Assembly (NCBI RefSeq): GCF_000820765.1
Contig: NZ_CCYH01000029.1
Location: forward strand, 186,001 to 250,000
Reading direction: 5' to 3'
Length of the DNA stretch: 64,000 nt
DNA from: Candidatus Soleaferrea massiliensis AP7
Lineage (GTDB): Bacteria > Bacillota > Clostridia > Oscillospirales > Ruminococcaceae
Made by a program: the position numbers and the translations under genes. The notes below the pieces were generated by a model. It had not been told where the DNA came from, did no database searches, and saw only the letters and a list, made by a program, of their open reading frames with translations. Positions 5,563 through 24,068 of the stretch are shown here, in pieces. Within the stretch, counting starts at the first letter, position 1. The number at the start of each line of letters is the position of its first letter.

Positions 5563-5719
5563 CCTGACTTTTCCTCCTTTCCGCTGATGCCGATTTGTCA
5601 AGCAGCGCCAGCTTTCTCGCCAGCCGCCTTGACACCACGCTGATGGCGGTCAGGACGCCGATCAGCTCCTCCGTCGTATCCTCGCTCTGCGCCAAGGCGG
5701 CATGTGCGTTTTTTCTCAT
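5510..5719 (-). CDS. Small hypothetical protein at head of replication operon
   Basis: A 69-residue basic, alanine-rich peptide beginning MRKNAHAALAQSEDTTEEL. The start at 5719 has an excellent ribosome site (GGAGGTGAAATCC). Its 3' end overlaps the helicase start by 53 bases, suggesting translational coupling. The middle (LIGVLTAISVVSRRLARKL) is an amphipathic helix rather than a clear membrane span. Similar short proteins precede helicases in clostridial phages and ICEs, but no function is known. Only about 23 bases separate its start from a terminator hairpin, so transcription must come through the sigma-factor gene upstream. Confidence 0.55.
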   Translation of the reverse strand: MRKNAHAALAQSEDTTEELIGVLTAISVVSRRLARKLALLDKSASAERRKSQDGAASAEVTHADQSRAL

Positions 5720-6664: not shown

Positions 6665-6757
6665 ACATCTGCGGCAACCAGGCTATCATAGTACCCGTAA
6701 GTACCTTAGACCCTATGGCTTTGCGTCCCTGCCTTTAGGCAGGTTTGCCCTTAGCGC
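6665..6757 (-). promoter_or_regulatory. c-di-GMP-I (GEMM-I) riboswitch aptamer
   Basis: The minus strand carries the GEMM-I pattern in order: GGGCAAACC, the hairpin CCTGCC-TAAA-GGCAGG, the conserved GACGCAAAGCCATAGGG, a CTAAGG segment, a second arm, then ATGATAGCCTGGTTGCC. GGCAAACC and GGTTGCC close P1, with the GACGCAAAGCC and AGCC segments as the tertiary/ligand core. The P2 tetraloop is TAAA rather than the common GAAA. It is followed after about 20 bases by a terminator, so it senses cyclic di-GMP and controls read-through. The first features downstream on this strand are further terminators, a possible small ORF and the sigma-factor gene at 6203. No host gene lies next to it. Confidence 0.93.
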
Positions 6758-6779
6758 TGATAATTTACTTTTTTATAAA

Positions 6780-9003: not shown

Positions 9004-9062
9004 AAGATGGTGGATTTTGTAAGAGTGCCACTATGTACCCCAAAAAGAAAAAGAGGTATAAA

Positions 9063-10664
9063 ATGTTTCAATATATAAAAAAAGTATTAAAGCATTTAAA
9101 AAATAAAAAGACAAATGATGAGGATAGTGCCCCTCAATCATCTCAGCTATCCCTATCCCTTGATCTTAATAGTAATCTCGATACATTAAGAAAAATTTTC
9201 AGTATAAGCAGCGATATTGTTATCCGCGAATTTGCTTTTGGCCAAAAACCGCAAATTCATGCTGCACTAATCTATGTTGACGGCTTGGTAGATAAAGCTA
9301 CAATTAACCAGAGTATAATAAAACCGTTAATGTATGATAGTCGTACCATCTGTTCGGAAGAAACACATAAAGAAAATATCGACCATATTAAAACAACCCT
9401 GCTTTCGGTAGGAGAAGTTAAACAGATTACTTCCATAAATAAACTCGTGGATGGTTGCATGTCTGGTGATACAATCCTATTAATTAATGGATTTGATGAA
9501 GCTCTTGTAATGAGTACCAGGGCTTGGGAGACCCGTGGAGTTCAGGAGCCTCAAACAGAAAATGTCGTTCGAGGGCCGCGCGAAGGATTTTCCGAAACGT
9601 TACGTATCAATACATCTTTATTAAGGCGCAAAATAAAGAACCCGGACTTAATATTAGAAACAATGAAAATAGGCAACAGAACGAAAACAGATGTTTGCAT
9701 TGCCTATCTCAACAGCATCGTTAATCCGGCGCTGATCGATGAGATTAAGCGCAGACTAAACAGAATTAATACGGACGCTATCCTTGAATCAGGATATATC
9801 GAACAATTCATCGAGGATGCACCGTATTCTATTTTCGCAACTGTTGCTAATAGTGAAAAACCGGATGTGGTGGCTGCAAAAATTTTGGAAGGGCGAGCGG
9901 CGATCTTTATAGACGGCACCCCCTTCGTGCTAACCGTTCCTATGCTCTTTGTTGAAAGTTTTCAAACCTCAGAGGATTACTATTCCCGAACCTTTTTTTC
10001 AAGCATTATAAGGATATTAAGATATGTATCGTATATGATTACAATTCTGACTCCTGGAGTCTATGTTGCAGTTTTAGCGTATCATCCTGAATTGATACCG
10101 ACTCCTTTAATGTTCACTTTGATGGCCTCAGAGGAAGGCCTTCCTTTCCCTCTGTTCTTGGAACTTTTTGTTATGGTACTCGTATTCGATATTCTAAGAG
10201 AAGCCGGTGTGCGGTTGCCCCGCCCCGTCGGTCAGGCTGTCAGCATTGTAGGTGCTCTGGTAATCGGTGAAGCTGCTGTTGCGGCCGGAATAGTTTCTGA
10301 TTTTACGGTTATTGTCATTGCGATTACTGCCGTAAGTAGTTTTGTGATTCCCGCACAAACAGATTCCGCAAGTATGCTTCGATACATTCTGCTGATACTT
10401 GGCGGAGTCATGGGAGGATACGGCATCATTATAGGGTTGATTTGCGCTTTGGTTCACTTGGCTACATTACGTTCATTTGGCACTCCATATTTATCGCCAT
10501 TGGCTCCTTTGGTTAGACGTGATCTTAAAGATACGTTTATCAGGGTACCAATATGGGGCATGGCTACCCGCCCTGAAGATATCGGAGCACAGGAGAGTAA
10601 GAGACAGTCAAGTGGATTAAAACCTACTCCTCCGCCCGAAGAAGAAAATCAAACAAGATCATAG
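9063..10664 (+). CDS. gerA: Spore germinant receptor subunit A (GerA family)
   Basis: A 533-residue GerA/GerKA-type protein. The N-terminal half is cytosolic (residues about 1-290, with QKPQIHAALIYVDGLVDK and the conserved EPQTENVVRGPREGF), followed by a membrane part with five or so hydrophobic spans (starting near YVSYMITILTPGVYVAVLA) and the family motif HPELIPTPL, then a Pro-rich tail. GerA proteins sit in the spore inner membrane and, with B and C subunits, recognise small-molecule germinants. I prefer the ATG at 9063 because AAAGAGGT precedes it by 6 bases; an earlier ATG at 9033 lacks a site. It is first of four genes, followed by the GerC-like gene 12 bases later. Confidence 0.93.
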   Translation: MFQYIKKVLKHLKNKKTNDEDSAPQSSQLSLSLDLNSNLDTLRKIFSISSDIVIREFAFGQKPQIHAALIYVDGLVDKATINQSIIKPLMYDSRTICSEETHKENIDHIKTTLLSVGEVKQITSINKLVDGCMSGDTILLINGFDEALVMSTRAWETRGVQEPQTENVVRGPREGFSETLRINTSLLRRKIKNPDLILETMKIGNRTKTDVCIAYLNSIVNPALIDEIKRRLNRINTDAILESGYIEQFIEDAPYSIFATVANSEKPDVVAAKILEGRAAIFIDGTPFVLTVPMLFVESFQTSEDYYSRTFFSSIIRILRYVSYMITILTPGVYVAVLAYHPELIPTPLMFTLMASEEGLPFPLFLELFVMVLVFDILREAGVRLPRPVGQAVSIVGALVIGEAAVAAGIVSDFTVIVIAITAVSSFVIPAQTDSASMLRYILLILGGVMGGYGIIIGLICALVHLATLRSFGTPYLSPLAPLVRRDLKDTFIRVPIWGMATRPEDIGAQESKRQSSGLKPTPPPEEENQTRS

Positions 10665-10676
10665 GGTATAAAAGTT

Positions 10677-11834
10677 ATGAAAAAAATAATGAGTCTAATG
10701 ATATGCATTATTCTAACATTCAACTTGACCGGTTGCTGGAGTTACCATGAATTGAACGATTATGCCGTTGTAGTTGGCGTGGGCATCGATAAAGCCGAAA
10801 GTGGGAATGTATTACTAACTGCTCAAATCGCGAAACCGAGTGCCTTAGCAAAGGATAGTAAAGGCGGCGGCAGTCAAGAGAAAGCATACTGGAATATTAC
10901 AAACGAAGCAGAAACGATCTTTAGTACAGTACGGAGTTATACCCATGAGTCTCCTCGCAAATTGTATTTTCAACACAATAAAGTACTCATATTCAGCCGA
11001 GAGGTAGCTGAAGAGGGGGTTCAAAAATATATCGATTTTTTTGTGCGCGACAATGAAACACGTATTATTACTTGGGTTTTGGTTGCAGACAAAGATAAGC
11101 CAAGCGATATTTTAGATATAGAGCGGGGGCTGGAAAAGGTGCCTGCAATAAATATCGATAAATTGGTCGAAGCTCAACAGTATAACGCTGAGACATATTC
11201 AATGAAATTGCTGCCTTTTTTACAACGCCTGATGAGCAAAACCACAGCGCCCGTAGCCCCGCTTATTGAAATCTCGGGTGAAGGTGAAGAACAAAAGATT
11301 GTTATATCAGGCTCTGCTGTTTTCAAAAAGGGTAAGCTCGTAGGCCAGCTAAACAAGACTGAAACCAGAGGCTTGTTATGGGTGGATGGTGAAGTCAAAA
11401 GCGGAATTATTGTAGTCGAATGTCCCGACGGCGAGGGAAAAGTCGATCTTGAAATTATGGAGGCCAGCAGCACTGTCACTCCTGAAATCAAGGACGGCAA
11501 TATTTCCATAAAGATTGAAATCAAAGAGCAAAGCAATCTTGGCAGTCAGTCGTGTGCTGAAAACTTAGCCACTTCTGAAATATTAAAACTTGGAGAAAAG
11601 AATGCCTCGGCTATTCGCAATGAAATTACAGCTTCAGTAGAAAAAGCTCAGAAACTAAACGCTGATGTCTTTGGCTTTGGTGAAGCGGTGCAGCGTAAAT
11701 ATCCCGGCCAATGGAAAGAACTCGAGAGCAAATGGGATGATATTTTCCCAAATATTCAGGTTGAGATTGAAGTAGACGCTGAGTTGTACGGAACAGGTAA
11801 GATTGGAGAACCCGCGCATCCGGATGAGGAATAG
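10677..11834 (+). CDS. gerC: Spore germination lipoprotein C (Ger(x)C family)
   Basis: A 385-residue protein with a lipoprotein signal (MKKIMSLMICIILTF, then lipobox LTGC at about residue 20) and the typical Ger(x)C start WSYHELNDYAVVVGVGID. Later hallmarks are ESPRKLYFQHNKVLIFSREVA and VFGFGEAVQRKYPGQWKEL. The lipoprotein anchors to the spore inner membrane and completes the germinant receptor. The gene order A-C-B differs from the A-B-C of Bacillus gerA but is common in clostridia. The ATG at 10677 begins 12 bases after the A-subunit stop; its ribosome site is weak, so coupling to the upstream gene is likely. Confidence 0.92.
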   Translation: MKKIMSLMICIILTFNLTGCWSYHELNDYAVVVGVGIDKAESGNVLLTAQIAKPSALAKDSKGGGSQEKAYWNITNEAETIFSTVRSYTHESPRKLYFQHNKVLIFSREVAEEGVQKYIDFFVRDNETRIITWVLVADKDKPSDILDIERGLEKVPAINIDKLVEAQQYNAETYSMKLLPFLQRLMSKTTAPVAPLIEISGEGEEQKIVISGSAVFKKGKLVGQLNKTETRGLLWVDGEVKSGIIVVECPDGEGKVDLEIMEASSTVTPEIKDGNISIKIEIKEQSNLGSQSCAENLATSEILKLGEKNASAIRNEITASVEKAQKLNADVFGFGEAVQRKYPGQWKELESKWDDIFPNIQVEIEVDAELYGTGKIGEPAHPDEE

Positions 11835-11839
11835 AATTT

Positions 11840-12940
11840 ATGATGAAATTAGAAAAAGGTATCATATCAAGCTCACAACTGATATTTCTAATAGGAATTT
11901 TTATTCAAGGTTCCATATTTTCGACTACCTTTGTGTTTGACATCACCCCAAAGGATGTCTGGCTAGCTTTGTTAACATCCTTTGCTGTGATGGCACTTTT
12001 CGCATTGGTTTACGTAAAGCTAATGCAGAAGTTTCCCGGTAAAAACCTTATACAGCTCAACAATATCGTGTTTGGCCCTTATCTAGGCAAGATGGTTTCT
12101 GTATTATATATTATATTTTTCATATTAATGGCTACTGCAAATTTAAGGTTTCTATCCGATTTCATAGCCGGTTTATTTATGGTAGATACGCCTGTAATCA
12201 TATTCGCTGTTATGCTTGTATTTGCTTGTGCTTGGGCAGTCCGAAACGGAGTAGAGACTCTTGCTCGGATCAGCTTGATATTTTTAGTAATCGTATCAAT
12301 ATCAGTCATATTGATTGTAATTTTAACGGCTAGCAAATTCGAATTTAATAATTTATTACCGGTTTTGAATGTTCCCCTTATGGATTTCATTCAGGCGAAT
12401 CATATTATTCTTACCATCTTCTTTGGCGAGATATTTGTTTTTATGATGCTAATCCCATATATAAACAACATGAAGAAGGCAAAGAAGTCAGTTCTTCTGG
12501 GATTAACCATTGGCGCGGCAACCATGTTTATCTCCTCGGTAATGGTCAGCGGGGTTCTGGGTAATATGGCTAACATTGCAGGAAGTCCTATCATTACAAC
12601 GATTCGTCAGATTGAAGTAGCAAAAGTCTTAACCAGAATGGATTTTATTGTTGTGGGTATGTTAATATTCTCAATTTTTATGAAGATTTCTGTTATTCAT
12701 TACGCAGTCGCATTGGGTATCGGCCATTTATTTAATTTACAGTCATATAAGCCGGTGGTGATTCCGATTGGAATTATCTTTATCGGCTTGGTAGTACCGA
12801 TGCATGACAATCCGGTTTCGCAAGTTGAAAGTGCGATGAAAACATGGCCTTTCTTTGCAAGTATCTTTGAATTTTTACTTCCAGTCATTACATTATTGGT
12901 GGCAGCTCTGCGCAGACTTCCTAAAAAACAAGGAGGGTAA
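11840..12940 (+). CDS. gerB: Spore germination permease B (GerAB/APC family)
   Basis: A 366-residue integral membrane protein of the endospore germination permease family, with ten or so hydrophobic segments. It starts with KGIISSSQLIFLIGIFIQGS, as in GerAB/YndE proteins, and has FPGKNLIQLNNIVFGPYLGK after the second helix. It belongs to the APC transporter superfamily and forms the ligand-binding membrane subunit of the germinant receptor. Two adjacent ATG codons (11840 and 11843) follow GATGAGGA; the first is listed. It begins 5 bases after the C-subunit gene and is followed after 5 bases by a small membrane protein gene. Confidence 0.92.
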   Translation: MMKLEKGIISSSQLIFLIGIFIQGSIFSTTFVFDITPKDVWLALLTSFAVMALFALVYVKLMQKFPGKNLIQLNNIVFGPYLGKMVSVLYIIFFILMATANLRFLSDFIAGLFMVDTPVIIFAVMLVFACAWAVRNGVETLARISLIFLVIVSISVILIVILTASKFEFNNLLPVLNVPLMDFIQANHIILTIFFGEIFVFMMLIPYINNMKKAKKSVLLGLTIGAATMFISSVMVSGVLGNMANIAGSPIITTIRQIEVAKVLTRMDFIVVGMLIFSIFMKISVIHYAVALGIGHLFNLQSYKPVVIPIGIIFIGLVVPMHDNPVSQVESAMKTWPFFASIFEFLLPVITLLVAALRRLPKKQGG

Positions 12941-13431: not shown

Positions 13432-13487
13432 TGGCGGAGAAGGTGGGATTCGAACCCACGTGCCCTTGCGGACAACCGCATTTCGAG
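13432..13487 (-). pseudogene. 3' fragment of tRNA-Ser, left end of integrated element
   Basis: The minus strand holds the anticodon-loop end, variable arm, T arm, acceptor 3' strand and CCA of a tRNA-Ser. Bases 13441-13487 match 23560-23606 of the intact tRNA exactly (47 bases). The acceptor strand here reads CTTCTCC, not the CTCTTCC of the intact gene. CTTCTCC pairs perfectly with GGAGAAG at the 5' fragment at 23677-23717, which shows these two pieces were one tRNA gene before insertion. Confidence 0.88.
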
Positions 13488-13500
13488 GAAGGAGAGAGAG

Positions 13501-13726
13501 GGAAAACATATGTGTTTTCCCCTTTATCTTTATATAGAGAGATGTGTAAAAGCACGCTTATCTAGAAATCACCCTTTATGTAATAAGTTCATTTCATTAA
13601 GTGTTTATTAGGATTGTGGCACCATTATGTAACCTCGTAACAAATTGAACTTTCGCTGTTGAGTAAATAAGATAAATATTATTTACTATCTTCCCTAAAG
13701 TTTACAAGCATATATTTCACATTCAC
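13501..13726. other. Left inner end of element with hairpin and possible Int arm site
   Basis: GGGAAAACA-TATG-TGTTTTCCC at 13501-13522 is a perfect hairpin followed by CTTTAT, a likely terminator. TGGCACCA at 13617-13624 is repeated at the right end (23466-23473, and as TGGTGCCA at 23443-23450), so it may be an arm-type integrase binding site. There is no gene here. Confidence 0.45.
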
Positions 13727-16523
13727 CTATAACTTCATAAAAAAACCATCCGTTTCAAAAATATGATCGAGTTCATCAGTGTTTTGCGCCTTTAACACTT
13801 TTTCCCTTACAGTACCATGTGACAAATCCAATCGTTTAAATCTTTGCTTTCCCGCTGGGTCTTTACCCTTACGTATTAGTTGTACTCTTCCAATTCTCGG
13901 CTCTTCTTCTGCATATCTCGCAAGACCCTTTGCCTTTCCAAGATTATCTTTATAGTCCGGATTATGTGGTTCCAAAACATCAATGACATATGTAAGCACA
14001 GGATCGCTTCTGATAATTAAAAAATCAGGATAGGTCGGTTTTATTTCACCGTTCATCTCATAGGGAAGACATAAGGCCCACTTTTGCCTGGAGGGATTCC
14101 TAAGCCAACAAACAAAATCGGACGCTTTTGACTCTTCCGTAATAACACCTTCTTCCCAGCCATTAAGATTAATTTTGGCAATACCTTTCTCATCAGCAAA
14201 AAGATGATTATCAAACTCTGTCCCGTCCTCTTCGAGACGTACACTGATTGTTTCAGGCAGGATAAAGTTATGTTTGCTGACAATATCTCCGTCAGCAATG
14301 ATATCGCTGTATTGCTTTCTGTATTTCTCAGATTCATTGACAACATATTTTCGGTATCGATCATTCAAATTATGAAATTTATTCTTTGCATATGCGTTCA
14401 GTTTTGCTATACAGTCATCGTCTGCCGCAAACAAAATACAATCAATCTTAAAAGCATTCGGATTTTCTGTATCGTAGTATTTTTTTCCATAAGCATTTTG
14501 AAATCCACAATTTCCGAGCTTTGCATCAGCAGCACGAAGCTGTCGATCAAGGTCGCTTTCAGATGCAGTAAAAAAATCCTGAATAGTATTGTTAAGGGCT
14601 TCTCCAAATACATCAAAGATGGAAACAGACAATTTAAAATTGAGTACCTGTGCGGCAAGTTCATCATATTTTCCCGTTTGATGCAGTTCGCTGATATAAG
14701 AGCATATCATATTTATAACATCATCTTTGATTTCATCGTTTGCTTTTGCGTGGATATTCGTCTGGGTAAGCAAAGCTGCAAGACTCAACAAGGATTTCAA
14801 ATAGCTGTTTATTCTAACAGTACGCACTACATACGTCAACAGGCCCTGTTCGTTGATAAATTTAGTGATTTCCTCTCTGTCCAAAGAGTATTTGGGAAAC
14901 TTAATCTGCTTACCAGTCTCTGGAGCGAACACATCCGACTCGGTTCTCTGTGAACTAATTGAGAATGTGGGAGTCGGTGTGCTTTGCGGCCGGATCTGCT
15001 GTTGATTCTCAGAAATATCTACTTTTGGTAAAAAAGATTCATCTGTAGGCGACTCTTCCTGTAAATCGACAGTATTATCCTCCTGCTGTACGGTTAATTC
15101 CAATTGTCCTGGTATAGGCAGGTCTTCCTTCCGGCGGTAGCGTACTGTCCAAGGAACATAACTCGGCCGTTCCATAGATTCCCCGTCAATCACAGTCGGG
15201 ATTTCTCCACCTTCGGTATTTTGCAGTTCTTCAATCACCTCTTTGACGGTGTTCCTATTAAAATAGGGGAGAAATAACCGCACATCATTCAGAAAATCGT
15301 CAACCAGAATATGACACTGTAATGGTGTTCTCACCATCCTGCCGAGAAGCTGTGCAATATAAGTGGCATCTTCTGCGTGTCGGAATGACATCATGGTTTC
15401 CGCTCGGGGACAATCCCAGCCTGTCGAAAGATTCTCTTTGAACAGTACTACGCGGATGCGCTTATCATCTGTAATTTCAGACGGTTCCACATGATGTACT
15501 GGCAATCCATTGATTGACAGCGTGGAAACCGATCCAAAAGTATGCACCACTTGATGTTCTTGAAACGAATCGCCGGTTCGCTCTTCAATTTTAGCGATGA
15601 CATCATCCAAATTGGTTTCGGAAACCTTATTTCCTTTGCCGGCAAGTACTTGAATCAGGAAGATTGGATTAACCTGAGCATAATGCTGTTCGTAAGAGTA
15701 TTGATACCAATGCTCGCACTTGTTTTTCCACTCGTCAGTTGCTGCCTGTAGAACCGCCATTTCGTTGTTCTTTTCCAGATCATCCGGATAGGTGATGACA
15801 ATCCGATCTTTCAGCAGGCCTGATGCGCGAACATCATTGGCGGTTATAATGCATTTTTGCAAGGTCGAGTTGGTGTCACCAACTAATTGGTTGAATCTGG
15901 CGGCAGTTGCACTGATGCCGATGACAACCGGCATGGGAGATAAGTGATGTGCTTTGCTTCCTTTGAGAAAACGCTGCATAATGGAGGTTGCTCTACCCGC
16001 CTCTCGCCCCTGCATACCACGATGTGCTTCATCGATAATAAAGTAGAGGTGGTCTGCCTTTTCTTTTGCTGTTTTTTTCCAAAGTTTCCCAGATTGTAAA
16101 TTGACGAGTGTCTGAATGCTTACCTAAATTCGCAGCTTTTCCCAGCTTCTGCGTGTTAAGAAAGTAAATATGTCCATCCTCCAGCAGTTCCATATCAAAG
16201 GATTCATCTTCAATGGTGACACACTGGTCAAAGCGGATTTTATCCGCCTTAAAATCAAATTTTTGCTTTGATTGTTCATTGAGCGCGGGAGAATCGGATA
16301 GCCAGACAAAGATAGCTTCCGGTTGTTCCGTATACTGGTCTGTACCAGAATATATATCCTCTACAAGCGCTGCCATGATAAGCGTTTTACCCGCACCAGT
16401 CGGCGCCTGCAGGGAAACCACCTGCGGGACATGCATGCGTCTGTAGCTTCCCAGTGCTTCCGCTACTTTCATACGCAGGTCAGTGACTGCCTTATTTTGA
16501 AAAGGAAATAATTCAACTTTCAT
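13727..16523 (-). pseudogene. res: Type III restriction endonuclease subunit Res, frameshifted
   Basis: Two minus-strand frames make one Res protein. The first (16523 to 16029) starts MKVELFPFQNKAVTDLR and has Walker A QAPTGAGKTLIMAA; the second carries the helicase motifs (SATAARFNQ, TGWDCPRAETMMSFR, QLLGRMVRTPL) and a C-terminal nuclease region (YPDFLIIRS, then YVIDVLEPHNPDYKDN). An extra base in the A7 tract at 16072-16078 breaks the frame; with six A residues the sequence reads through KTAKEKADHLYFIIDEAHRG, restoring the DEAH box. As sequenced the ATPase is cut before motif II and should be inactive. It could be a sequencing error, a true mutation, or a phase-variable tract. The gene starts 2 bases after the mod stop and is co-transcribed with it. 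Confidence 0.88.
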
Positions 16524-16525
16524 CC

Positions 16526-18640
16526 TCAGTTCCTCCCTGTATTGATCCTGAAATTGTCGAGATAATCCCGGTATAGCTGATAAGTATTGGAAGCGTTCAG
16601 GTTTTTTGCCATAGCACGATATCCCGCCTCGTAGTCAGTGACAATGAAGACTGTTTGAATTTCAGGTTGGGCATTCACTTTTGCTTGAAAATCCGGAAAG
16701 GCAGATTCTTCTGTGAGTATGGCAAGTTTATTCTCGGGCAGAACGAGCATGGCAGGAATCTCATCCCCGTCCTGTTCAGGACAGGGCCCATACGATCCGG
16801 CTTTCATCCAAAGGGTGGGCAGCATTTCCTTGAACTGCCTGCCAAGCGCAACGGAGGTTTTATCAAGAAAACCAAGTTTGAAATAAGCCACATTTGATTT
16901 GAACCCGTCTGCCATAGAAATATCGCTGCCGAGATAATTCCCCTTGAGTGGATTGCCATTAACGTCATGCCCTTCAATACTACAGACGGTGCGCGGCCAG
17001 GTGACATAGCGTGCGATGCCCAGCTTCTCCCATTCCGGGTCACCAGGATGATAACCTTGCTTGGTGAGAGATTTCGCTTCGTCGACTGATACTTCATTAT
17101 TGGTGACCATAATACAGCGACGATGACCGCCGTCTTCTGCGTTGAGGAGGTTGACCGCATGTTGTGTAGTGCCTGAGCCTGCGAAGAAATCGATGATTAA
17201 TGCATTGGGTTTGTTAGCAACAAAAAAACGCAATGTATCCTTTACAGCATAGAGTGATTTCGGAAATGAAAAGCGTCTATCATGAAAAAAACCATTTAAG
17301 AGCATAGTTCCATATTCACTCGCTGAATGAGATTTTTTATGCCATATTGTTAACGGTCTAATGTCTTTATCTAAAGACGATTTTAATTCAATAATGTATG
17401 CTCCATCTTCGTCTTGACCAACAATATCATACATACCATTGTTAAAATTATTTTCTTGACTTTCGGATAAATAATAACCCGTGCGTCCTTTTCCATTCCA
17501 TTTTCCAAAGCTCAAAAAATGTTGACGTTGCTTTGCCATTAATGTTTCAGGTTGTAAATTCCACGTTAATTCTGTACCATTTGAGCCGATTGGCCACATA
17601 GCTACTGTTCCTTCTGGAGGTTCATATGTATTTCTATCTTCTTCAATATTGGGTACAGGCCCAGGTCCCAAAAATTCCCCTGTATCTTTTTTGAATATAA
17701 GAGGATAAAAGAGATTGGGTCTGTCTGTTCTCTTGCCATGATTGCTTGCCTGTCTAAGCAATGCCCTCAACCTCACAGATCGGTCTTTTTGTTCTACATT
17801 ATCATCTTTAATAGCATCACGAAGCATATCTGAACCATTAGATATAATATATGCATTTCCGACATAGATAAAGAATATATATTCTTCACACCTTGAAAAC
17901 TCATTATCTCTTCTATTTCCTTTAGGATTAATAACTGAAGAAATCATCTGCAACCTCGCCTCTGGAAACATTTCTTCCAGCAAGCACCCCAAATGCAGAT
18001 ATTCTTTTTCATCAATGGTAACAATTAGCACCGAATCCTTCGAATTCAAGAGTTTCTTTGCTATCCTCAACCGCTTTTGCATCATAGACAACCATTTGCT
18101 GTGCCTATATGCATCGTTGTTGTCTACATAATCATTATTGTATTTCCAATCCTTTGCGCCAGTGTTATAAGGCGGATCGATATAGATACAGTCTACCTTT
18201 CCGGCATAGAGGTATTCCAGCAGCTGGAGGGCATGATAATTATCTGCCTCAATCAGCGTATGCCACAATTCGCTATCAGGGGCATTACATATGGTATCGA
18301 CAGGCCTGAGGCAGGGATAGATTGCTTCTCCAAACTCCGCCACAGCTACCAGGTCCGTCAGCGGAATCTTTACTTCATCTTTACTGCCTTTTGGCATGCA
18401 GATTACTGTGTCCTCCTCGATTTTTAGAACGACATAGTTTTCACTCACCTTGCCGGTCTTACGTGCAACAGTGCTTCCCTGTTTGATTGGGATATCATAT
18501 AGTGGCGTGCATTCCGGCAGGTGCTCTTCGAACACCAAGCCAAACTTTTTCTGTTTATTCATCCGGTCCACTTCTGCCTGAATGCGAGCTTGTAACTCCG
18601 GATTGTCTATTTGATTAATTAAATCATTGATTGCCGCCAT
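16526..18640 (-). CDS. mod: Type III DNA methyltransferase (Mod)
   Basis: A 704-residue N6-adenine (beta-class) methyltransferase. The catalytic motif DPPYNTG is at residues 155-161, followed by the target recognition region (roughly 250-440) and the AdoMet-binding motif DFFAGSGTTQHAV near residue 477, in the order expected for beta-class enzymes. It modifies one strand of an unpalindromic site and forms the Mod2Res complex with the adjacent Res subunit. The middle third is more AT-rich than the ends, as expected for an exchanged specificity region. With res disrupted, Mod could still methylate host DNA and act as an orphan epigenetic regulator. Confidence 0.93.
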   Translation of the reverse strand: MAAINDLINQIDNPELQARIQAEVDRMNKQKKFGLVFEEHLPECTPLYDIPIKQGSTVARKTGKVSENYVVLKIEEDTVICMPKGSKDEVKIPLTDLVAVAEFGEAIYPCLRPVDTICNAPDSELWHTLIEADNYHALQLLEYLYAGKVDCIYIDPPYNTGAKDWKYNNDYVDNNDAYRHSKWLSMMQKRLRIAKKLLNSKDSVLIVTIDEKEYLHLGCLLEEMFPEARLQMISSVINPKGNRRDNEFSRCEEYIFFIYVGNAYIISNGSDMLRDAIKDDNVEQKDRSVRLRALLRQASNHGKRTDRPNLFYPLIFKKDTGEFLGPGPVPNIEEDRNTYEPPEGTVAMWPIGSNGTELTWNLQPETLMAKQRQHFLSFGKWNGKGRTGYYLSESQENNFNNGMYDIVGQDEDGAYIIELKSSLDKDIRPLTIWHKKSHSASEYGTMLLNGFFHDRRFSFPKSLYAVKDTLRFFVANKPNALIIDFFAGSGTTQHAVNLLNAEDGGHRRCIMVTNNEVSVDEAKSLTKQGYHPGDPEWEKLGIARYVTWPRTVCSIEGHDVNGNPLKGNYLGSDISMADGFKSNVAYFKLGFLDKTSVALGRQFKEMLPTLWMKAGSYGPCPEQDGDEIPAMLVLPENKLAILTEESAFPDFQAKVNAQPEIQTVFIVTDYEAGYRAMAKNLNASNTYQLYRDYLDNFRINTGRN

Positions 18641-18826
18641 AAAATCACTCCTATTATTGCGCTATAAGCAGTTATATAAAAATTGCACAAACCATTATCT
18701 TATATCAGAACAGCATTGGTTGTGTATCTGGTCAATATTTGTAATAATGAAAGCTTGTCCTGCATGACAACACGATTCTCCCATCACTATGTTTGTAGCA
18801 TGTGAGAAAAGAAAAACGCGATGTTT

Positions 18827-19051
18827 TTACGATTTATTCGAAATATCTTCAACTACATACTCAACAATATCCGAAAGCCCGCAATCCAGCGCCTTGCAGA
18901 TGCGTTCCAGCACACCGTAGTCGATTTTACGGACACGGTCGTGATACATGGCGTTGATGGTCGTCTTGGATACACCTGTCATACGGGACAGTTCCGCCAT
19001 TTTAATGCGCCTTTCACCCAGCAAAGTGGATAATCTACAATGAATAGCCAA
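18827..19051 (-). CDS. Small XRE-type regulator (YozG-like)
   Basis: A 74-residue helix-turn-helix protein: LSTLLGERRIKMAELSRMTG, VSKTTINAMYHDRVRKID, then LERICKALDCGLSDIVEYV. This is the short Cro/CI-type fold of YozG/YozE-like regulators. An ATG at 19066 opens the frame but overlaps the ribosome site itself; the TTG at 19051 follows GGAGGTG with 6 bases between, so I take that as the start. It is upstream of the mod-res pair on the same strand and could act as the controller of the restriction system, by analogy with C proteins, though this is not shown. Confidence 0.78.
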   Translation of the reverse strand: MAIHCRLSTLLGERRIKMAELSRMTGVSKTTINAMYHDRVRKIDYGVLERICKALDCGLSDIVEYVVEDISNKS

Positions 19052-19226
19052 ATTTTGCACCTCCATTTTTCTTAGTATAACATTTTATAAGTCCTTTTGG
19101 CAAGTTAAATGATAAAAAAGGCTCTGTAGGTGATACAAACGCCCTTGACTGTGTTATATCCGTGTGGTAATATAGGCTTAACAAGAAGTTTAATATACCA
19201 CTTATAGAGGCTAAAAGGAGGAGAAT

Positions 19227-19535
19227 ATGTGTCCCATTTTTCCATATCTGGACAATTTATATTTTGGAAACTTGAACCCAAACGAGAACCTACATTCATC
19301 AGATCCTGAATTCAATGAGATTCAAAAACAAGCGTGTGAACTGGAAGATCAAATCGAAAGCAAACTCAATCTTTTAGATAAAGATCTGTTTCACGCCATG
19401 TTGCATACGCGCGGCAGCGCATCCGCAATGGAGGTTCGGGAGGCCTTTGCCGTGGGATACCAAATTGCCACAAACCTATTACTGGAGGCGCTTGGATTTA
19501 GAAAGCAGGATGAGGAAGGCGGCGAAACAAATTGA
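19227..19535 (+). CDS. DUF6809-like small protein
   Basis: A 102-residue acidic protein: PYLDNLYFGNLNPNENLH at the start, then a helical region (ELEDQIESKLNLLDKDLFHA) and AFAVGYQIATNLLLEAL. The layout resembles the DUF6809 family, common in clostridia and often on mobile elements; it has no known activity. AGGAGGAGAAT directly precedes the ATG at 19227. It overlaps the next gene by 4 bases, so the two are coupled. Opposite in direction to the restriction genes. Confidence 0.65.
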   Translation: MCPIFPYLDNLYFGNLNPNENLHSSDPEFNEIQKQACELEDQIESKLNLLDKDLFHAMLHTRGSASAMEVREAFAVGYQIATNLLLEALGFRKQDEEGGETN

Positions 19536-19849
19536 AGCTGGAGGCGTTGCTGAAAGAGAATATTGCAGATTTGCCCATCTCGTTTACGGAGCACTTATAC
19601 GCTGCGTTTTCAGAAGCTCAATCCGATCTCTGTATGCGTAATAAGGAGCGTAATGCAGAATATCAGCGCAAGGAAAAACAGTACAGCCAGGTCTTTGATG
19701 AAATCCGGAACCGGCTTGGTAAAAATCGCAAGCTGATGCTTAAGCTGGAACGCTTGCAAAATGAAATAAGCTCCATGGACTGCGACCTTATCTATCTTCA
19801 GGGGTTTATCGATTGCGTTACGCTGCTCAAATTGATTCAGCTGATCTAG
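19532..19849 (+). CDS. Helical hypothetical protein coupled to DUF6809-like gene
   Basis: A 105-residue protein that is mostly charged helix (RNKERNAEYQRKEKQYSQVF; KNRKLMLKLERLQNEISSM). It starts at a TTG (19532) inside the stop region of the previous gene (TTGA overlap), with AGGCGG upstream, which indicates translational coupling. Its N-terminal and C-terminal segments look like a relative of the preceding protein (LKENIADLPISFTEHLY; DLIYLQGFIDCVTLLKLIQL), so the pair may have arisen by duplication and may form a complex. No function is known. Confidence 0.55.
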   Translation: MKLEALLKENIADLPISFTEHLYAAFSEAQSDLCMRNKERNAEYQRKEKQYSQVFDEIRNRLGKNRKLMLKLERLQNEISSMDCDLIYLQGFIDCVTLLKLIQLI

Positions 19850-19867
19850 GCGGCGCAGGAGGAGAAT

Positions 19868-20632
19868 ATGGAAATTAAAGTGAAACGAATCATCAGTTGG
19901 TCCTGTTTGCTTTGTGAATTATTGCTTTTGCCGGCATGCACTACCAAAGAAACAGCAAGCTCTGGCTCTGAAGAGTTATCCAGAGTGCAATCACTAGATA
20001 GCATACCGGCGGAAGCACCGACAATAACACCTACAGAGCCGGCATCAGAGCTTTTCTCCGCTGTGTATACAGTGGCAAGTTTATCTGGGGAGCCATCAAA
20101 TCCCTCCCAAATCACTGAAAGCTCCTCAGAAGTATCAGAAAATAAAATGAGCTCCTCGCCTGAAAGAGCGGTTTCTTCACCATCCAGTGAAGCGACCGCA
20201 GCACCGCAAACGGCTTCTTATCCCCCAGAGGAAGCGTATCAGTCGGAAACGTCGCCTCCCGAACTTTTTGATACACCGCCGCCGGTACTTTCTGACGCCC
20301 CAAGAGTGGAGGCGATGGGAAGCGCATATCTTTATGATTTATTGTCAGGAGTCAACTCACATAGAAGCAAGTCCTTGAATATGGATGCTGATTTATCAGT
20401 CTCCGCACAGGCGCACGCGGAGGAAATGGCACAGTCGAAAAGCTTGTACCACTCCTGCTCCGGTGTTGAATCTGTTGGGAAAGGTGCCTTTGAGGACGGG
20501 GTAAAAGAGGGCTCCATGCTGACAGTACATTGTTCAGACCTAGCTTCTGAGGAGCTTATACGGATTGGTGCAGGAGCGGCGCGAGATGAAGACGGCTCAA
20601 TTTATGTCTGTATTTTGGGAAAAACTTATTAA
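19868..20632 (+). CDS. CAP/SCP-domain lipoprotein
   Basis: A 254-residue exported lipoprotein. The signal is hydrophobic (WSCLLCELLLLPAC, lipobox Cys near residue 24). A Ser/Pro/Glu-rich linker fills residues 30-145. The C-terminal domain is CAP/SCP-like: LYDLLSGVNSHRSKSLNMDADL, then AQAHAEEMAQSKSLYHSCSG, with the His residues of the CAP site. The final part (DEDGSIYVCILGKTY) fits the last strand. The domain is short for the family (about 105 residues). CAP proteins often bind surface ligands or lipids. AGGAGGAGAAT precedes the ATG. It is probably co-transcribed with the two genes before it; a role in surface display of the element is only a guess. Confidence 0.8.
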   Translation: MEIKVKRIISWSCLLCELLLLPACTTKETASSGSEELSRVQSLDSIPAEAPTITPTEPASELFSAVYTVASLSGEPSNPSQITESSSEVSENKMSSSPERAVSSPSSEATAAPQTASYPPEEAYQSETSPPELFDTPPPVLSDAPRVEAMGSAYLYDLLSGVNSHRSKSLNMDADLSVSAQAHAEEMAQSKSLYHSCSGVESVGKGAFEDGVKEGSMLTVHCSDLASEELIRIGAGAARDEDGSIYVCILGKTY

Positions 20633-20646
20633 CCTAGTGATCGTAT

Positions 20647-20913
20647 GTGATATGGATTATGAAGGGATCAGAAATTTACCGAAATGTCGCTGAAAAGCTA
20701 AGGCTGCTGCGCACTCTCACTGGCGTTTCTCAACAACAGGTTGCCGACTTCATTCATGTAAACCGCTCCACCTACTCCTATTATGAATTAGGAGCAAACA
20801 AGCCGCCGCTGGATGTCCTCTGCGCGTTGGCAGAGTATTTTGATGTCAATCTTGGCTATCTGACAGGGACGGAAGAAATCAGACCTGGACACAAGTTTTA
20901 TACGCTTTTATAA
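20647..20913 (+). CDS. XRE-family regulator
   Basis: An 88-residue (or 84 if the internal ATG at 20659 is used) helix-turn-helix protein: EKLRLLRTLTGVSQQQVADF, NRSTYSYYELGANKPPLDV, then LAEYFDVNLGYLTG. The listed start is a GTG at 20647; the ATG four codons later is as likely, as neither has a strong ribosome site. It is a typical phage or ICE repressor in shape. It is followed by a strong terminator, so it closes the plus-strand gene set. Confidence 0.85.
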   Translation: MIWIMKGSEIYRNVAEKLRLLRTLTGVSQQQVADFIHVNRSTYSYYELGANKPPLDVLCALAEYFDVNLGYLTGTEEIRPGHKFYTLL

Positions 20914-20927
20914 TATGGAATAAACGC

Positions 20928-20977
20928 AAGGAACCCGCCGCGTCACTTGAACACGGCGGGTTCCTTGTACTTTTTTA
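20928..20977 (+). terminator. Intrinsic terminator
   Basis: AAGGAACCCGCCG and CGGCGGGTTCCTT form a strong stem, followed by GTACTTTTTTAA. It ends the plus-strand gene set of the element. Confidence 0.85.
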
Positions 20978-20988
20978 ATCCGAGAATC

Positions 20989-21204
20989 TTATTTCTCCGA
21001 CATGATCTTCATAGTAATCCACTCAGGCTTAGAATCCGAATAACGCATAGTACCATCACGGAGCAGAAATAGTGTCCCTTCGGCAGTACCGTAAGGCCTG
21101 TCCGTTTTTTGCATTTTCGTGTCCACAAACAAATCCGTTCTGATTTGAATGATAGCGTAGATGTCTTTGACGTTGATTTCACTGTTATTGCACGGCAGAA
21201 ACAT
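20989..21204 (-). CDS. Hypothetical protein of element
   Basis: A protein of about 71 residues (MFLPCNNSEINVKDIYAIIQ, ending SKPEWITMKIMSEK). The frame opens with two ATG codons; the second (21204) is 8 bases after AAGGAGGAT, and the first is too close to it, so the second is taken. It has an alternating beta-type pattern and no membrane segment. I do not recognise a family. It is on the minus strand opposite the neighbours, with the long GC-rich inverted-repeat region behind its promoter. Confidence 0.6.
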   Translation of the reverse strand: MFLPCNNSEINVKDIYAIIQIRTDLFVDTKMQKTDRPYGTAEGTLFLLRDGTMRYSDSKPEWITMKIMSEK

Positions 21205-21210
21205 AAACAT

Positions 21211-21772
21211 ATCCTCCTTTCCTAAATTGGAAACGAATCCGCCTTCCGGAGCGACTTTTTCGTCTCAACTATAATATGAAGGACATTGACCGGATTTAGT
21301 AACGCTGAACCGTCGTTTTTCACCCAACGGTCGTTTTCAAAAACGGACCCTCTTTAGAAAGGGGTGAGAGCATATTGAGTAAAAACGGCCGGAGGGCCAA
21401 ATAAACCGCCGGATGCGAATATAGACGGCCGGAGCTCCGATAACCGCCGTTTTTCTCATGGATTCTCTCACAATCGCGGTTGCCGCAGCCTGAAAAATAT
21501 TTTTCCAATCCTGGAGACATATGCCGGTCTGTCATACTCTGGGTATGACAGAAATCCATAAAGAAAACGATCAAGCGGCCTGCACTTGCGCCCAGCGGGG
21601 GCATGGTGCAGACTGTTTTTTGTTTTCTGAGTAGTTTTAGCTGAAACTTTTTAGAGCTTGGCAGGAGAGAAAACAATCATAGCTCAATTCTCCTTTTCTA
21701 TCTGTTTCATAAATCCTTTCAACCTCCTGCATATTTAAGTTGTCAGCAAAATGAAGAAAGGAGTGAAACGCG
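21211..21772. other. Inverted-repeat-rich control region before xis-int
   Basis: A stretch without genes but with many related GC-rich words: ACGGCCGGAG at about 21384 and 21425, ACCGCCG at about 21402 and again in ATAACCGCCGTTTTT. TGTCATAC-TCTG-GGTATGACA near 21531 is a clean hairpin, and CCAACGGTCGTTTTCAAAAACG near 21323 is another inverted repeat. This looks like a conserved regulatory or processing region (promoters, protein binding sites, or possibly an origin of transfer). No single function can be assigned from sequence. Confidence 0.5.
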
Positions 21773-21859
21773 ATGCTGTGTGTTTGCACAGAAAGAAATA
21801 AAAGGAAAGGGGGTTGCACAGATGAGGAAAACAAACAATCAAGCGCCGTACGTCCGTGA
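21773..21859 (+). CDS. Possible leader peptide overlapping xis
   Basis: A 28-codon frame (MLCVCTERNKRKGG...) with a reasonable ribosome site (AAAGGAG, 9 bases before the ATG). It overlaps the start of the xis-like gene in another frame. Its translation would place ribosomes across the xis ribosome site, so it may couple or attenuate xis expression. The overlap may also be chance. Confidence 0.3.
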   Translation: MLCVCTERNKRKGGCTDEENKQSSAVRP

Positions 21860-22049
21860 GGATACGCTGCTTAAAACCGTGGAACAGATGAGCCGCATCA
21901 GCGGTATTGGGGAAAACAAACTGCGCCAGCTGATTGAGGACCGGCAAATTGAGTATGTCGAGAATGGAAACCGAAAGCTGCTGGTGGAAGCCGCGATTTG
22001 GGATTGGTACGAGCGGAATAAAATCCGTGTGAAAAAGGAGGCGGAGTAA
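21822..22049 (+). CDS. xis: Xis-like excisionase / small DNA-binding protein
   Basis: A 75-residue protein with a winged-helix/excisionase pattern: LLKTVEQMSRISGIGENKLRQ, then IEYVENGNRKLLVEAAIWDWYERNKI. This is the MerR/Xis-like fold that binds attachment sites and directs the integrase to excision. The ATG at 21822 follows AAAGGGGGT; the longer frame begins without a site. Its stop overlaps the integrase start by one base (TAATG), the standard coupled xis-int layout. The assignment rests on the fold pattern and position, both of which fit well. Confidence 0.85.
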   Translation: MRKTNNQAPYVREDTLLKTVEQMSRISGIGENKLRQLIEDRQIEYVENGNRKLLVEAAIWDWYERNKIRVKKEAE

Positions 22050-23332
22050 TGTCGGTATCGACGAGACAGGTAAAAAACAAGAGAGATGGAAACGGAGCTT
22101 TGACAGGCAAGGCAGGTGTTGTCTATGATGTCAACGTGAAATACCAGCAGCAGGGCAAATGGAGAACCCATGTGAAGAAAGGCTTTGCCACAAAGAAGGA
22201 GGCTGTCCAGTATGAGGCGGAGATGCGCACGAAGCTGGCAAGCCCATCCTATTCCCCTATTGACATGGCAAAGGGCAAGCAGACGGTTCAGGAGTACATG
22301 GAGACCTGGGTAGAGCAGCACGGCAAGGCCAATCTGCGCCCCAGCACCTTTGACGGCTACAAGAGCTACATCCGCAACCATATCGGGCCCCATATCGGCT
22401 ACGTACAGCTGCGGGCGCTCACACCCGCTATGCTGGATGAGATGTTTCAGAAGATGTTTGACGAGGGACTGTCCCAAAGCTCTGTACGCTACACCCAGCG
22501 CATTCTGAGCGTGGCGCTGGAGGCGGCGAGGAAATACCGCTACATCGACCATAATCCAGCCCGTGATATTCTGACCAAGTTTGGAAAACAAGGAAAAACG
22601 CCTGACCCGTACACCATCCCGCAAATGCAGCAGCTATTTGGCCTGCTCACCGGTACTGAATGGGAGATGATCGTCATGCTGGCGGGCATGTACGGTATGC
22701 GCATGAGCGAGATTCTGGGCCTGAGATGGCGCAATGTGGATTTGGAAAATGGCTGCTTCTTAGTAGTGGAACAGCTTCCCTATAAGCTGCCAACAGGAAC
22801 AACAGAAGTTAGTGAGATGGCTCCCGTGAAAGGAAAGGGAGCCGATGGCTCCGGCGAGCGCACGCTGCCGATTACCGAGGTGGCAAGAGAGTATTTCGAA
22901 AGACAGCTGGAGCTTCAGGAACGTCAACGTAGCCTGGCAAGAAACGGCGGTGGAAGCTATTATGAAAACGACCTGGTCAACGCAAAACCCAACGGCGCTC
23001 CGAACCGCCGGGACAGCGTATCCGCGAATTTTGCCCAGTTGATCCGGCGGCTGAGTTTGCCTCACCTCCGATTCCACGACCTGCGCCATTCGGCGGCAAC
23101 CAACATGCATCAGCTGACCGGAGACTTTTATACCGTGGGCATGATCCTGGGCCACAGCCTAAAGGGTACGGGTCTCCAGCTTGGGATTTCTACCAACTTA
23201 GACGCCGTAACCGCGCAGTATGTGGACGTGAGATTAGAACGCAAGAAATATGTGCTGGACGCTTACCACAACGCACTATTCCCGAAAGCGAATACTGAAA
23301 AAAACGAGGAGAATCGGCAGAACGCCGAATGA
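22049..23332 (+). CDS. int: Tyrosine integrase of the tRNA-Ser element
   Basis: A 427-residue phage/Tn916-type integrase. The N-terminus has the AP2-like arm-binding domain (VNVKYQQQGKWRTHVKKGFA), then the SAM-like core-binding domain (MAKGKQTVQEYMETWVEQHG), then the catalytic domain: Arg I in MYGMRMSEILGLRW (Arg218), the HDLRHSAATN box (His/Arg near residues 343-347), LGHS and the tyrosine in AVTAQYVDV (Tyr391). All catalytic residues are present. It integrates into tRNA-Ser; the right attachment site lies about 350 bases downstream. The region after the gene has TGGYRCCA-type repeats that may be arm sites. The start ATG overlaps xis. Confidence 0.95.
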   Translation: MSVSTRQVKNKRDGNGALTGKAGVVYDVNVKYQQQGKWRTHVKKGFATKKEAVQYEAEMRTKLASPSYSPIDMAKGKQTVQEYMETWVEQHGKANLRPSTFDGYKSYIRNHIGPHIGYVQLRALTPAMLDEMFQKMFDEGLSQSSVRYTQRILSVALEAARKYRYIDHNPARDILTKFGKQGKTPDPYTIPQMQQLFGLLTGTEWEMIVMLAGMYGMRMSEILGLRWRNVDLENGCFLVVEQLPYKLPTGTTEVSEMAPVKGKGADGSGERTLPITEVAREYFERQLELQERQRSLARNGGGSYYENDLVNAKPNGAPNRRDSVSANFAQLIRRLSLPHLRFHDLRHSAATNMHQLTGDFYTVGMILGHSLKGTGLQLGISTNLDAVTAQYVDVRLERKKYVLDAYHNALFPKANTEKNEENRQNAE

Positions 23333-23442
23333 ATACCCCCAGATGGCTTTAGCAATTTACAAACCCTGTTAACACTTCTTATCACCAAAATGTCACCAGA
23401 GAATCTAACCAAAATGCATAGGATGAATGAAGAAAAAAATTG

Positions 23443-23473
23443 TGGTGCCAATGTCACCACAAAATTGGCACCA
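23443..23473. promoter_or_regulatory. Possible integrase arm-type sites
   Basis: TGGTGCCA (23443-23450) and TGGCACCA (23466-23473) lie in inverted order, with GTCACCA copies near them at about 23390 and 23453. The same word, TGGCACCA, is at the other element end (13617-13624). Such short repeats on both ends are what arm-binding integrases need. This is a pattern match only. Confidence 0.4.
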
Positions 23474-23515
23474 TTTCATTGAAACCTCGAAAATCGAATA
23501 GTGAAAGGCAAAGAG

Positions 23516-23550
23516 AAAACCCGCACAAACCTAGTGTTTGTGCGGGTTTT
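23516..23550 (-). terminator. Terminator downstream of tRNA-Ser
   Basis: CCCGCACAAAC and GTTTGTGCGGG form an 11-base stem directly after the CCA end on the minus strand, followed by TTTTC. It serves the tRNA gene. Confidence 0.8.
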
Positions 23551-23639
23551 TGGCGGAAGAGGTGGGATTCGAACCCACGTGCCCTTGCGGACAACCGCAT
23601 TTCGAGTGCGGCTCGTTATGACCACTTCGATACTCTTCC
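23551..23639 (-). tRNA. tRNA-Ser (CGA anticodon)
   Basis: A complete class II tRNA of 89 bases with encoded CCA. The acceptor stem is GGAAGAG with CTCTTCC, discriminator G. The anticodon loop is CTCGAAA on stem CCGCA/TGCGG, so the anticodon is CGA (reads UCG). The long variable arm and the T loop TTCGAAT fit tRNA-Ser. The acceptor stem matches itself but not the fragments at the element's two ends, so this copy was probably brought in by the element. Confidence 0.95.
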
Positions 23640-23795
23640 GTATCATAAATATGCAGTTTTAGGAGATTATCACATTATTTCGAGTGCGGCTCGTTATGAC
23701 CACTTTGATACTTCTCCATGTTGTAAATATTCAGTTTTAGCGGAAGATCACATGATTTTGAGCACAGGCTGTTACAGCCACTTCTACACGCTTCC
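23601..23795. repeat. 78-base imperfect tandem repeat with tRNA-Ser 5' halves
   Basis: Units start at 23601, 23679 and 23757, each 78 bases apart. Each begins with the anticodon-to-5'-end half of a tRNA-Ser on the minus strand, followed (in units 1 and 2) by a similar upstream flank containing CAGTTTTAG and ATCACAT. Unit 1 belongs to the intact gene, unit 2 is a clean fragment, and unit 3 is strongly diverged. Confidence 0.85.
23677..23717 (-). pseudogene. 5' fragment of original host tRNA-Ser
   Basis: The minus strand reads GGAGAAG, then the D arm and the 5' side of the anticodon stem, and stops at the anticodon loop. GGAGAAG pairs perfectly with CTTCTCC of the 3' fragment at 13432-13440. 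The anticodon-loop ATTTCGAG here and at 13480-13487 is the crossover repeat. Confidence 0.85.
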
Positions 23796-24068
23796 AGCTA
23801 TCAAACTATCGCCGATATCTTCCATGCCTTTGTTATGGATCATACTCGTGCAGCGAACATTAATATATTACCACATCTTCCCCCTAAAAGTCAAACTTTT
23901 TTTCATATTTTTCAGAAATTTTTGTTCCTGCAAATACCTCCGGAATAAAGTTGCACTCCAGCTTATATCATAATACTTTTCACTCTTTCCACAAACCGTG
24001 TACTGTCATCAAAAAAGAATTCATTTCATATGATATTTCAGAGAAAATTTTTCTGGGAGGGGTATTCT
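23796..24068. other. Gene-free flank right of the element
   Basis: AT-rich DNA of about 270 bases with T-rich runs near 23890-23925. No gene, clean hairpin or obvious promoter is seen, except that it must hold the promoter for the amidase-like gene at 24069. Confidence 0.4.

Follow-up and report, generated by a model that had tools for sequence, protein, structure and literature searches.

What becomes of a tRNA gene when an integrative element inserts into it and neither junction rebuilds the gene? This question is raised by a 64,000-nucleotide stretch of Candidatus Soleaferrea massiliensis AP7 (Clostridia; Oscillospirales; Ruminococcaceae; RefSeq assembly GCF_000820765.1, contig NZ_CCYH01000029.1, positions 186,001 to 250,000), hereafter the window, in which an integrative element occupies a tRNA-Ser(CGA) gene. 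The sequence shows that the element sits between the two halves of one tRNA-Ser(CGA), broken at CTCGAAAT, and that it carries a complete tRNA-Ser(CGA) 37 bp inside the core. The best explanation of the whole, which we consider highly probable from these sequence comparisons, is that this site-specific integrative element does not repair the tRNA gene it enters but substitutes another for it.

The split tRNA-Ser(CGA) and the intact copy

Along the minus strand, beginning downstream of the promoter-like site, the order is a decayed 5′ half, 37 bp, a clean 5′ half, 37 bp, the intact tRNA, the element and the 3′ half (Table 1). The tRNA halves are bounded by CTCGAAAT, which comprises the anticodon loop plus one base; the decayed half has CTCAAAAT instead. 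On the plus strand this repeat (ATTTCGAG) occurs at 13480-13487, at 23677-23684 and, within the intact tRNA, at 23599-23606, each time at the anticodon loop. Each end of the element adjoins one lone host tRNA half, and neither junction rebuilds the gene.

The original prediction, made from the letters of the window, held that these fragments were once one gene split at the anticodon loop. In agreement with it, the acceptor strands of the two host halves (GGAGAAG x CTTCTCC) form Watson-Crick pairs at 7/7 positions, and the joined halves fold at -32.4 kcal/mol and are called tRNA-Ser(CGA) by ARAGORN. The two hybrids of a host half with the element tRNA fold at -28.2 and -25.7 kcal/mol, although ARAGORN accepts these as tRNA-Ser as well. 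The incomplete pairing claimed for the intact tRNA was also found, its 5′ acceptor strand GGAAGAG pairing with the CTTCTCC of the left half at 5/7 positions. Because the two tRNA genes of the window differ almost solely in their acceptor stems, the evidence from this locus hangs on two compensated positions; this weakness is removed by the cases in other genomes described below, in many of which both stems are informative.

A DNA search found one full copy of tRNA-Ser(CGA) in the genome, for which Rfam gave 41 tRNA matches. Among the stretches inspected, tRNA-Ser genes with GGA, GCT and TGA anticodons are also present. A tRNA-Ser(TGA) might read UCG in the absence of a CGA isoacceptor, and UCG might therefore remain readable here without tRNA-Ser(CGA).

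If the element replaces its target, its integrase would recombine attP, made up of the inner left end, CTCGAAAT and the spacer, with the identical 8 bp of the host tRNA; we infer recombination at this 8-bp core. The host 5′ half would remain beside its promoter, with the complete tRNA of the element arriving immediately downstream of it, and the other half of the host gene would be displaced to the far end. Since the incoming tRNA contains a fresh core, the site would stay open to the next element, with every round adding another 5′ half upstream.

Two features go beyond the original prediction. One is the decayed 5′ half; the other, also on this contig, is a 3′ half of older date some 77 kb away from the tRNA (G000:C29:132831-132888, CTCTTCC/CGCGG; G000 denotes this genome). 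The two have a G31-C39 pair in common, which is absent from the remaining copies in the genome, and the 3′ half probably represents an older layer. Because of the further decayed 5′ half upstream, the locus is probably not the product of a single event.

Table 1. Positions of the element, the tRNA copies and the associated features in the window.
Feature	Position	Strand	Remarks
Displaced 3′ half of split tRNA-Ser(CGA)	13432-13487	-	Acceptor CTTCTCC
Left copy of 8-bp core CTCGAAAT (ATTTCGAG on +)	13480-13487	-	
Integrative element, 10,189 bp	13488-23676		
Type III restriction (res-like) gene, two frames	13727-16523 (13727-16015 + 16029-16523)	-	Weak matches
Type III DNA methyltransferase (mod)	16526-18640	-	PDLC03645, E 6e-162
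Two small DUF6809-type proteins	19227-19849	+	Second one under Pfam cut-off
CAP-domain protein	19868-20632	+	PF00188, E 3e-4
Helix-turn-helix (HTH) regulator	20647-20913	+	
Small excisionase-like protein	21780-22049	+	phrog_16129, E 2e-4, weak match
Tyrosine integrase	22049-23332	+	PF00589, E 1e-17
Complete element-carried tRNA-Ser(CGA)	23551-23639	-	GGAAGAG/CTCTTCC; ARAGORN; Rfam 57.4 bits
37-bp spacer, core to element tRNA	23640-23676	-	Inferred half of attP
Right copy of 8-bp core	23677-23684	-	
5′ half of split tRNA-Ser(CGA)	23677-23717	-	Acceptor GGAGAAG
Decayed older 5′ half	23755-23795	-	Acceptor GGAAGCG; 68% identical over 41 bases
Promoter-like site TTGACT-18-TAATAT, upstream of all 5′ halves	23865-23894	-	9/12; consensus match only

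Fossil 5′ halves and displaced 3′ halves in other genomes

A fossil 5′ half and a displaced 3′ half that once formed one gene should have matching stems. We compared 27 displaced 3′ halves without an attached 5′ half, from 23 genomes with readable 5′ halves in which the fossil and the working gene differ. A match was defined as 7/7 Watson-Crick pairs in the acceptor stem and 5/5 pairs in the anticodon stem, with G-T allowed; stem letters were entered by hand. The comparison left out G321, G442, G210 and G463, where the split gene equals the working gene; G469, which suits both to the same degree (6/7); G083 and G017, whose core is changed or missing; and G092, which does not discriminate. G130 and further genomes with multiple 5′ halves were not included. 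A fossil 5′ half was matched in both stems by 21 of the 27 displaced 3′ halves, compared with a mean of 2.18 and a maximum of 9 fossil matches in 50,000 shuffles of the halves among genomes. Where cases were picked because both stems exclude the working gene, 13/15 match a fossil. The same logic of a split gene beside a complete one thus recurs in other genomes, which bears out the earlier claims that such fragments once formed one gene and that the element supplied a complete replacement tRNA-Ser(CGA).

Oscillibacter valericigenes Sjm18-20 has four fossil 5′ halves and a working gene with GGAAGCG/CCGCA; its 3′ half CCGCTCC/TCAGT, 66 kb off, fits the innermost fossil, GGAGCGG/ACTGA. Matched halves lie 66 kb apart in G051 and 67 kb apart in G129, and in G459 both fossils are matched by displaced 3′ halves. 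Integrases of PF00589 adjoin the working tRNA in G051, G129 and G419, and a 27%-identical integrase does so in O. valericigenes. The insert from working tRNA to matching 3′ half measures approximately 66-67 kb in G051, G129 and O. valericigenes Sjm18-20, a common size that hints at one family of larger elements. In G083 (L038, 7162) and G017 (L050, 7671), displaced 3′ halves have the acceptor of the working tRNA itself and an altered or missing core; these are possibly ordinary 3′-restoring islands at the same gene.

The 5′-half pattern was found in 277/394 genomes of the order, 78 of which have two or more matches by hand count; this figure sets an upper limit for stacks, since some of the matches sit on separate contigs or derive from another serine tRNA. 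In a search of the class, 132/291 genomes had a 5′-half match, and among the matches listed at least 12 genomes outside the order have two or more 5′ halves on one contig less than 300 bp apart. The 3′-half pattern was present in 59/63 genomes searched. The exact short-spacer stack pattern recovered 61 stretches in titled records, some of them genomes already counted under our G handles; these records include O. valericigenes Sjm18-20, Anaerotignum neopropionicum DSM-3847 and Pseudoflavonifractor sp. An44.

The 101 distinct spacers fall into three groups, of 37-40 bp (38 spacers), 49-51 bp (12) and 129-196 bp (51); counting starts directly after CTCGAAA, and the 37 bp of the window were therefore entered as 38. 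The innermost spacer measures 37-38 bp in 5/5 titled loci with close homologues of the element integrase (61-70%), two of which are G302 and G089 again. With distant homologues (25-29%) it measures 139-173 bp in 6/7 titled loci, the exception being L186 with 38, in a titled set that was selected for a short spacer somewhere in the stack. The tRNA-like sequence starts at CTCGAAAT in all seven inner ends displayed. Several long spacers contain direct repeats such as AGTTCTCCCC, seen by eye, which we take for putative integrase arm sites. A different serine-tRNA body (TACCCAAGTGG, TGTCCGAGTGG) occurs in the working tRNA of G378 (L099, ~5594) and in one fossil of G141 (L115), so swaps may cross tRNA lineages.

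The idea that spacers carry new promoters was dropped, as sigma-70-like sites are not enriched in them. Sites of at least 9/12 close to the tRNA occur in 0/38 short, 0/12 middle and 2/47 long spacers (about 5%, 5% and 2% in shuffles), and with the -10 anywhere in the spacer in 3/38, 0/12 and 8/51, against 4.5, 1.6 and 8.2 expected. Individual spacers, including that of the window, may hold a promoter. This lack of enrichment favours transcription from the old host promoter, and the new tRNA would then, although less certainly, be read from that promoter through the fossil halves.

Interruption of the same gene is also seen in the viral collection. Contigs L053 and L056 have a near-identical host flank, with 1987/2000 bases shared ahead of the same 5′ half. 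The tRNA of L053 (4155-4228) runs on into its 3′ half, to the contig end, and in L056 (5034-4961, minus strand) foreign DNA follows directly after CTCGAAATC and no tRNA was called on the contig. This pair supports the proposed break point in this gene for a different element. Two viral contigs of approximately 150 kb, L051 and L059, each have a tRNA-Ser(CGA) 5′ half that lacks its 3′ counterpart, as well as several tRNAs, tRNA-Ser(TGA) among them, with no CGA among the ARAGORN calls. They may be large phages that disrupt this tRNA and make up for the loss with another isoacceptor; no relative of the element integrase was found in the inspected stretches of either.

Competing explanations and known precedents

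The working tRNA could instead belong to a canonical 3′-restoring island, being a host 5′ half completed by an element 3′ half, with the left fragment as the host 3′ half bearing two later mutations and the extra 5′ halves as unrelated duplicates. The left fragment does share an identical 47-base block, from the core to the T arm, with the working tRNA, and G083 and G017 may hold halves of this type. However, at the two changed positions the left half pairs precisely with the neighbouring 5′ half, displaced halves and working tRNAs differ widely elsewhere, and the single match to a working tRNA among the 27 is about what chance would give. Acceptor pairing, folds and the other-genome test all argue that the working tRNA is not such a hybrid, and we regard this explanation as improbable. 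An island that restores the 5′ half together with its promoter has precedents in pTN3-like integrases (PMC8371274) and in 159/3919 Islander islands (PMC4383910), at least in the passages of those papers that describe them, and would place 5′ fragments upstream of a working gene, as is seen here. It is already contradicted by the map of this locus: the fossil and the working 5′ halves are only 37 bp apart, which leaves no room for an element, and the working tRNA possesses a 3′ half of its own, that of the split gene lying 10.1 kb away. The working tRNA is thus not an element 5′ half joined to a host 3′ half, and we give this explanation almost no credence. Local duplication of the 5′ half by slippage or unequal recombination, unconnected to the element, would suit the regular spacing of the copies in the window (37 bp twice), but the acceptor stems of the copies differ and match displaced 3′ halves elsewhere, and spacer lengths form separate groups, which makes it very unlikely.

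Several observations also weigh against replacement of the target tRNA. No empty site or excised circle of the element was seen, the genus group consisting of this genome alone. The older 3′ half fits the decayed 5′ half at 6/7 acceptor and 5/5 anticodon-stem positions, compared with 7/7 and 4/5 for the working tRNA. One of the 27 displaced halves fits the working tRNA (G460, opposite strand; chance expectation 1.3) and five fit neither exactly: the older half of G000, G099 (7/7 + 4/5), G141, G274 and G068. Several 3′ halves are on separate contigs. The contigs of G048 and G431 end within the innermost tRNA; the comparison therefore had no working gene for G048, and for G431 it used the 5′ half of that gene. 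The integrase of G099 is found at the opposite end, beside the 3′ half, which indicates that element layout is not rigid. Single-sequence peptide patterns recovered no integrase relative in viral and genome collections; a further search found homologues in 7/394 genomes of the order, this genome included (E up to 1e-40). Against transcription from the old host promoter in particular, a second promoter-like match on the correct strand (23702-23674, 9/12) overlaps the fossil and the spacer.

Replacement as a principle is already known, from actinobacteriophages (PMC10865867) and Sinorhizobium (PMC11476347), and our comparisons refer to the relevant passages of these and the other papers cited. 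In the tRNA-dependent lysogeny of actinobacteriophages (PMC10865867), a tyrosine integrase acts at a short core (8-17 bp) in a host tRNA gene and the host tRNA is not rebuilt. The present element likewise has a PF00589 integrase, the 8-bp core at both ends, where recombination would take place, and unjoined host halves; the carriers there are temperate phages, whereas virion genes are absent among the scanned proteins of this element. In Fionnbharth the tRNA overlaps gene 37 and has its own promoter, and in Gaia it lies downstream of int (PMC10865867); here, in contrast, it is placed 37 bp past the core and reads in the gene's own orientation. Stacked 5′ halves from earlier rounds, as seen here, are not mentioned for actinobacteriophages in those passages. 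Prophage Lj965 of Lactobacillus johnsonii, mentioned in the same paper, likewise leaves the tRNA unrepaired and encodes a cognate one, but differs from this element in being a prophage. Phage-related sequences of Sinorhizobium meliloti inactivate the target tRNA and replace it with an element-borne isoacceptor closer to tRNAs of unrelated species (PMC11476347); that case concerns Alphaproteobacteria, and its passages describe no fossil stacks. These precedents qualify the original prediction, which called whole-gene import unusual. Canonical tRNA islands (Islander, PMC4383910) share the tyrosine integrase, the anticodon-loop site and the far-end tRNA fragment, but they restore part of the gene, whereas this element supplies an entire one and leaves both host halves in place. 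The disrupted tRNA-Thr of Caldiarchaeum (PMC3293823) similarly has a 5′ tRNA fragment near another copy and a recombinase-coding insert; it is archaeal and intron-bearing, with a 1.8-kb insert between fragment and gene. Tycheposons in Methylophilaceae, as described in secondary sources, also begin with a tRNA and contain a tyrosine recombinase.

What is new here is the absence of phage genes among the scanned proteins, the tRNA directly behind the attachment core, and the stacked fossil halves across Clostridia; in the open-access literature searched, neither stacked 5′ halves nor this site in Clostridia turned up in any report. With slightly more belief than doubt, we propose that a guild of different elements in Clostridia shares one renewable site, each bringing a complete tRNA-Ser(CGA) that the old host promoter could drive and regenerating the target. 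The locus would then be an ordered record of integrations, and the cellular tRNA gene in effect a mobile-element gene, repeatedly replaced and occasionally by another tRNA-Ser lineage. Transfer RNA genes are usually regarded as conserved core genes, and here one appears to be swapped repeatedly by mobile DNA. As the debris of the swaps preserves the order of events, integration history could be legible from one genome, and with a fresh target after each insertion the site need never fill up. Such elements could be mapped wrongly by island finders, which match a tRNA to a fragment of itself. The locus also raises the question of whether an RNA gene of translation can be maintained by serial replacement behind one old promoter.

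Element genes and flanking DNA

Besides the integrase, which has arm-binding and SAM-like domains, the element encodes the proteins in Table 1. No virion or transfer match was found among nine element proteins scanned against Pfam and PADLOC, or six against PHROGs; smaller open reading frames lay outside the scan. The frame break in the res-like gene reflects either an inactive gene or a sequencing error.

To the left of the element, a prophage extends from G000:C29 ~149196 to about window position 5601, with genes for terminase, capsid, tail, primase, a family A DNA polymerase and two adjacent large serine recombinases. It is followed by a GerA-type germination operon (9033-12940). The 66.6 kb from the older 3′ half to the left end of the element were considered as one clean older element, and this was dropped because the prophage with its two serine recombinases and the germination operon lie inside. 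A cyclic di-GMP (c-di-GMP-I) riboswitch is located at 6670-6759 of the window on the minus strand (80.5 bits).

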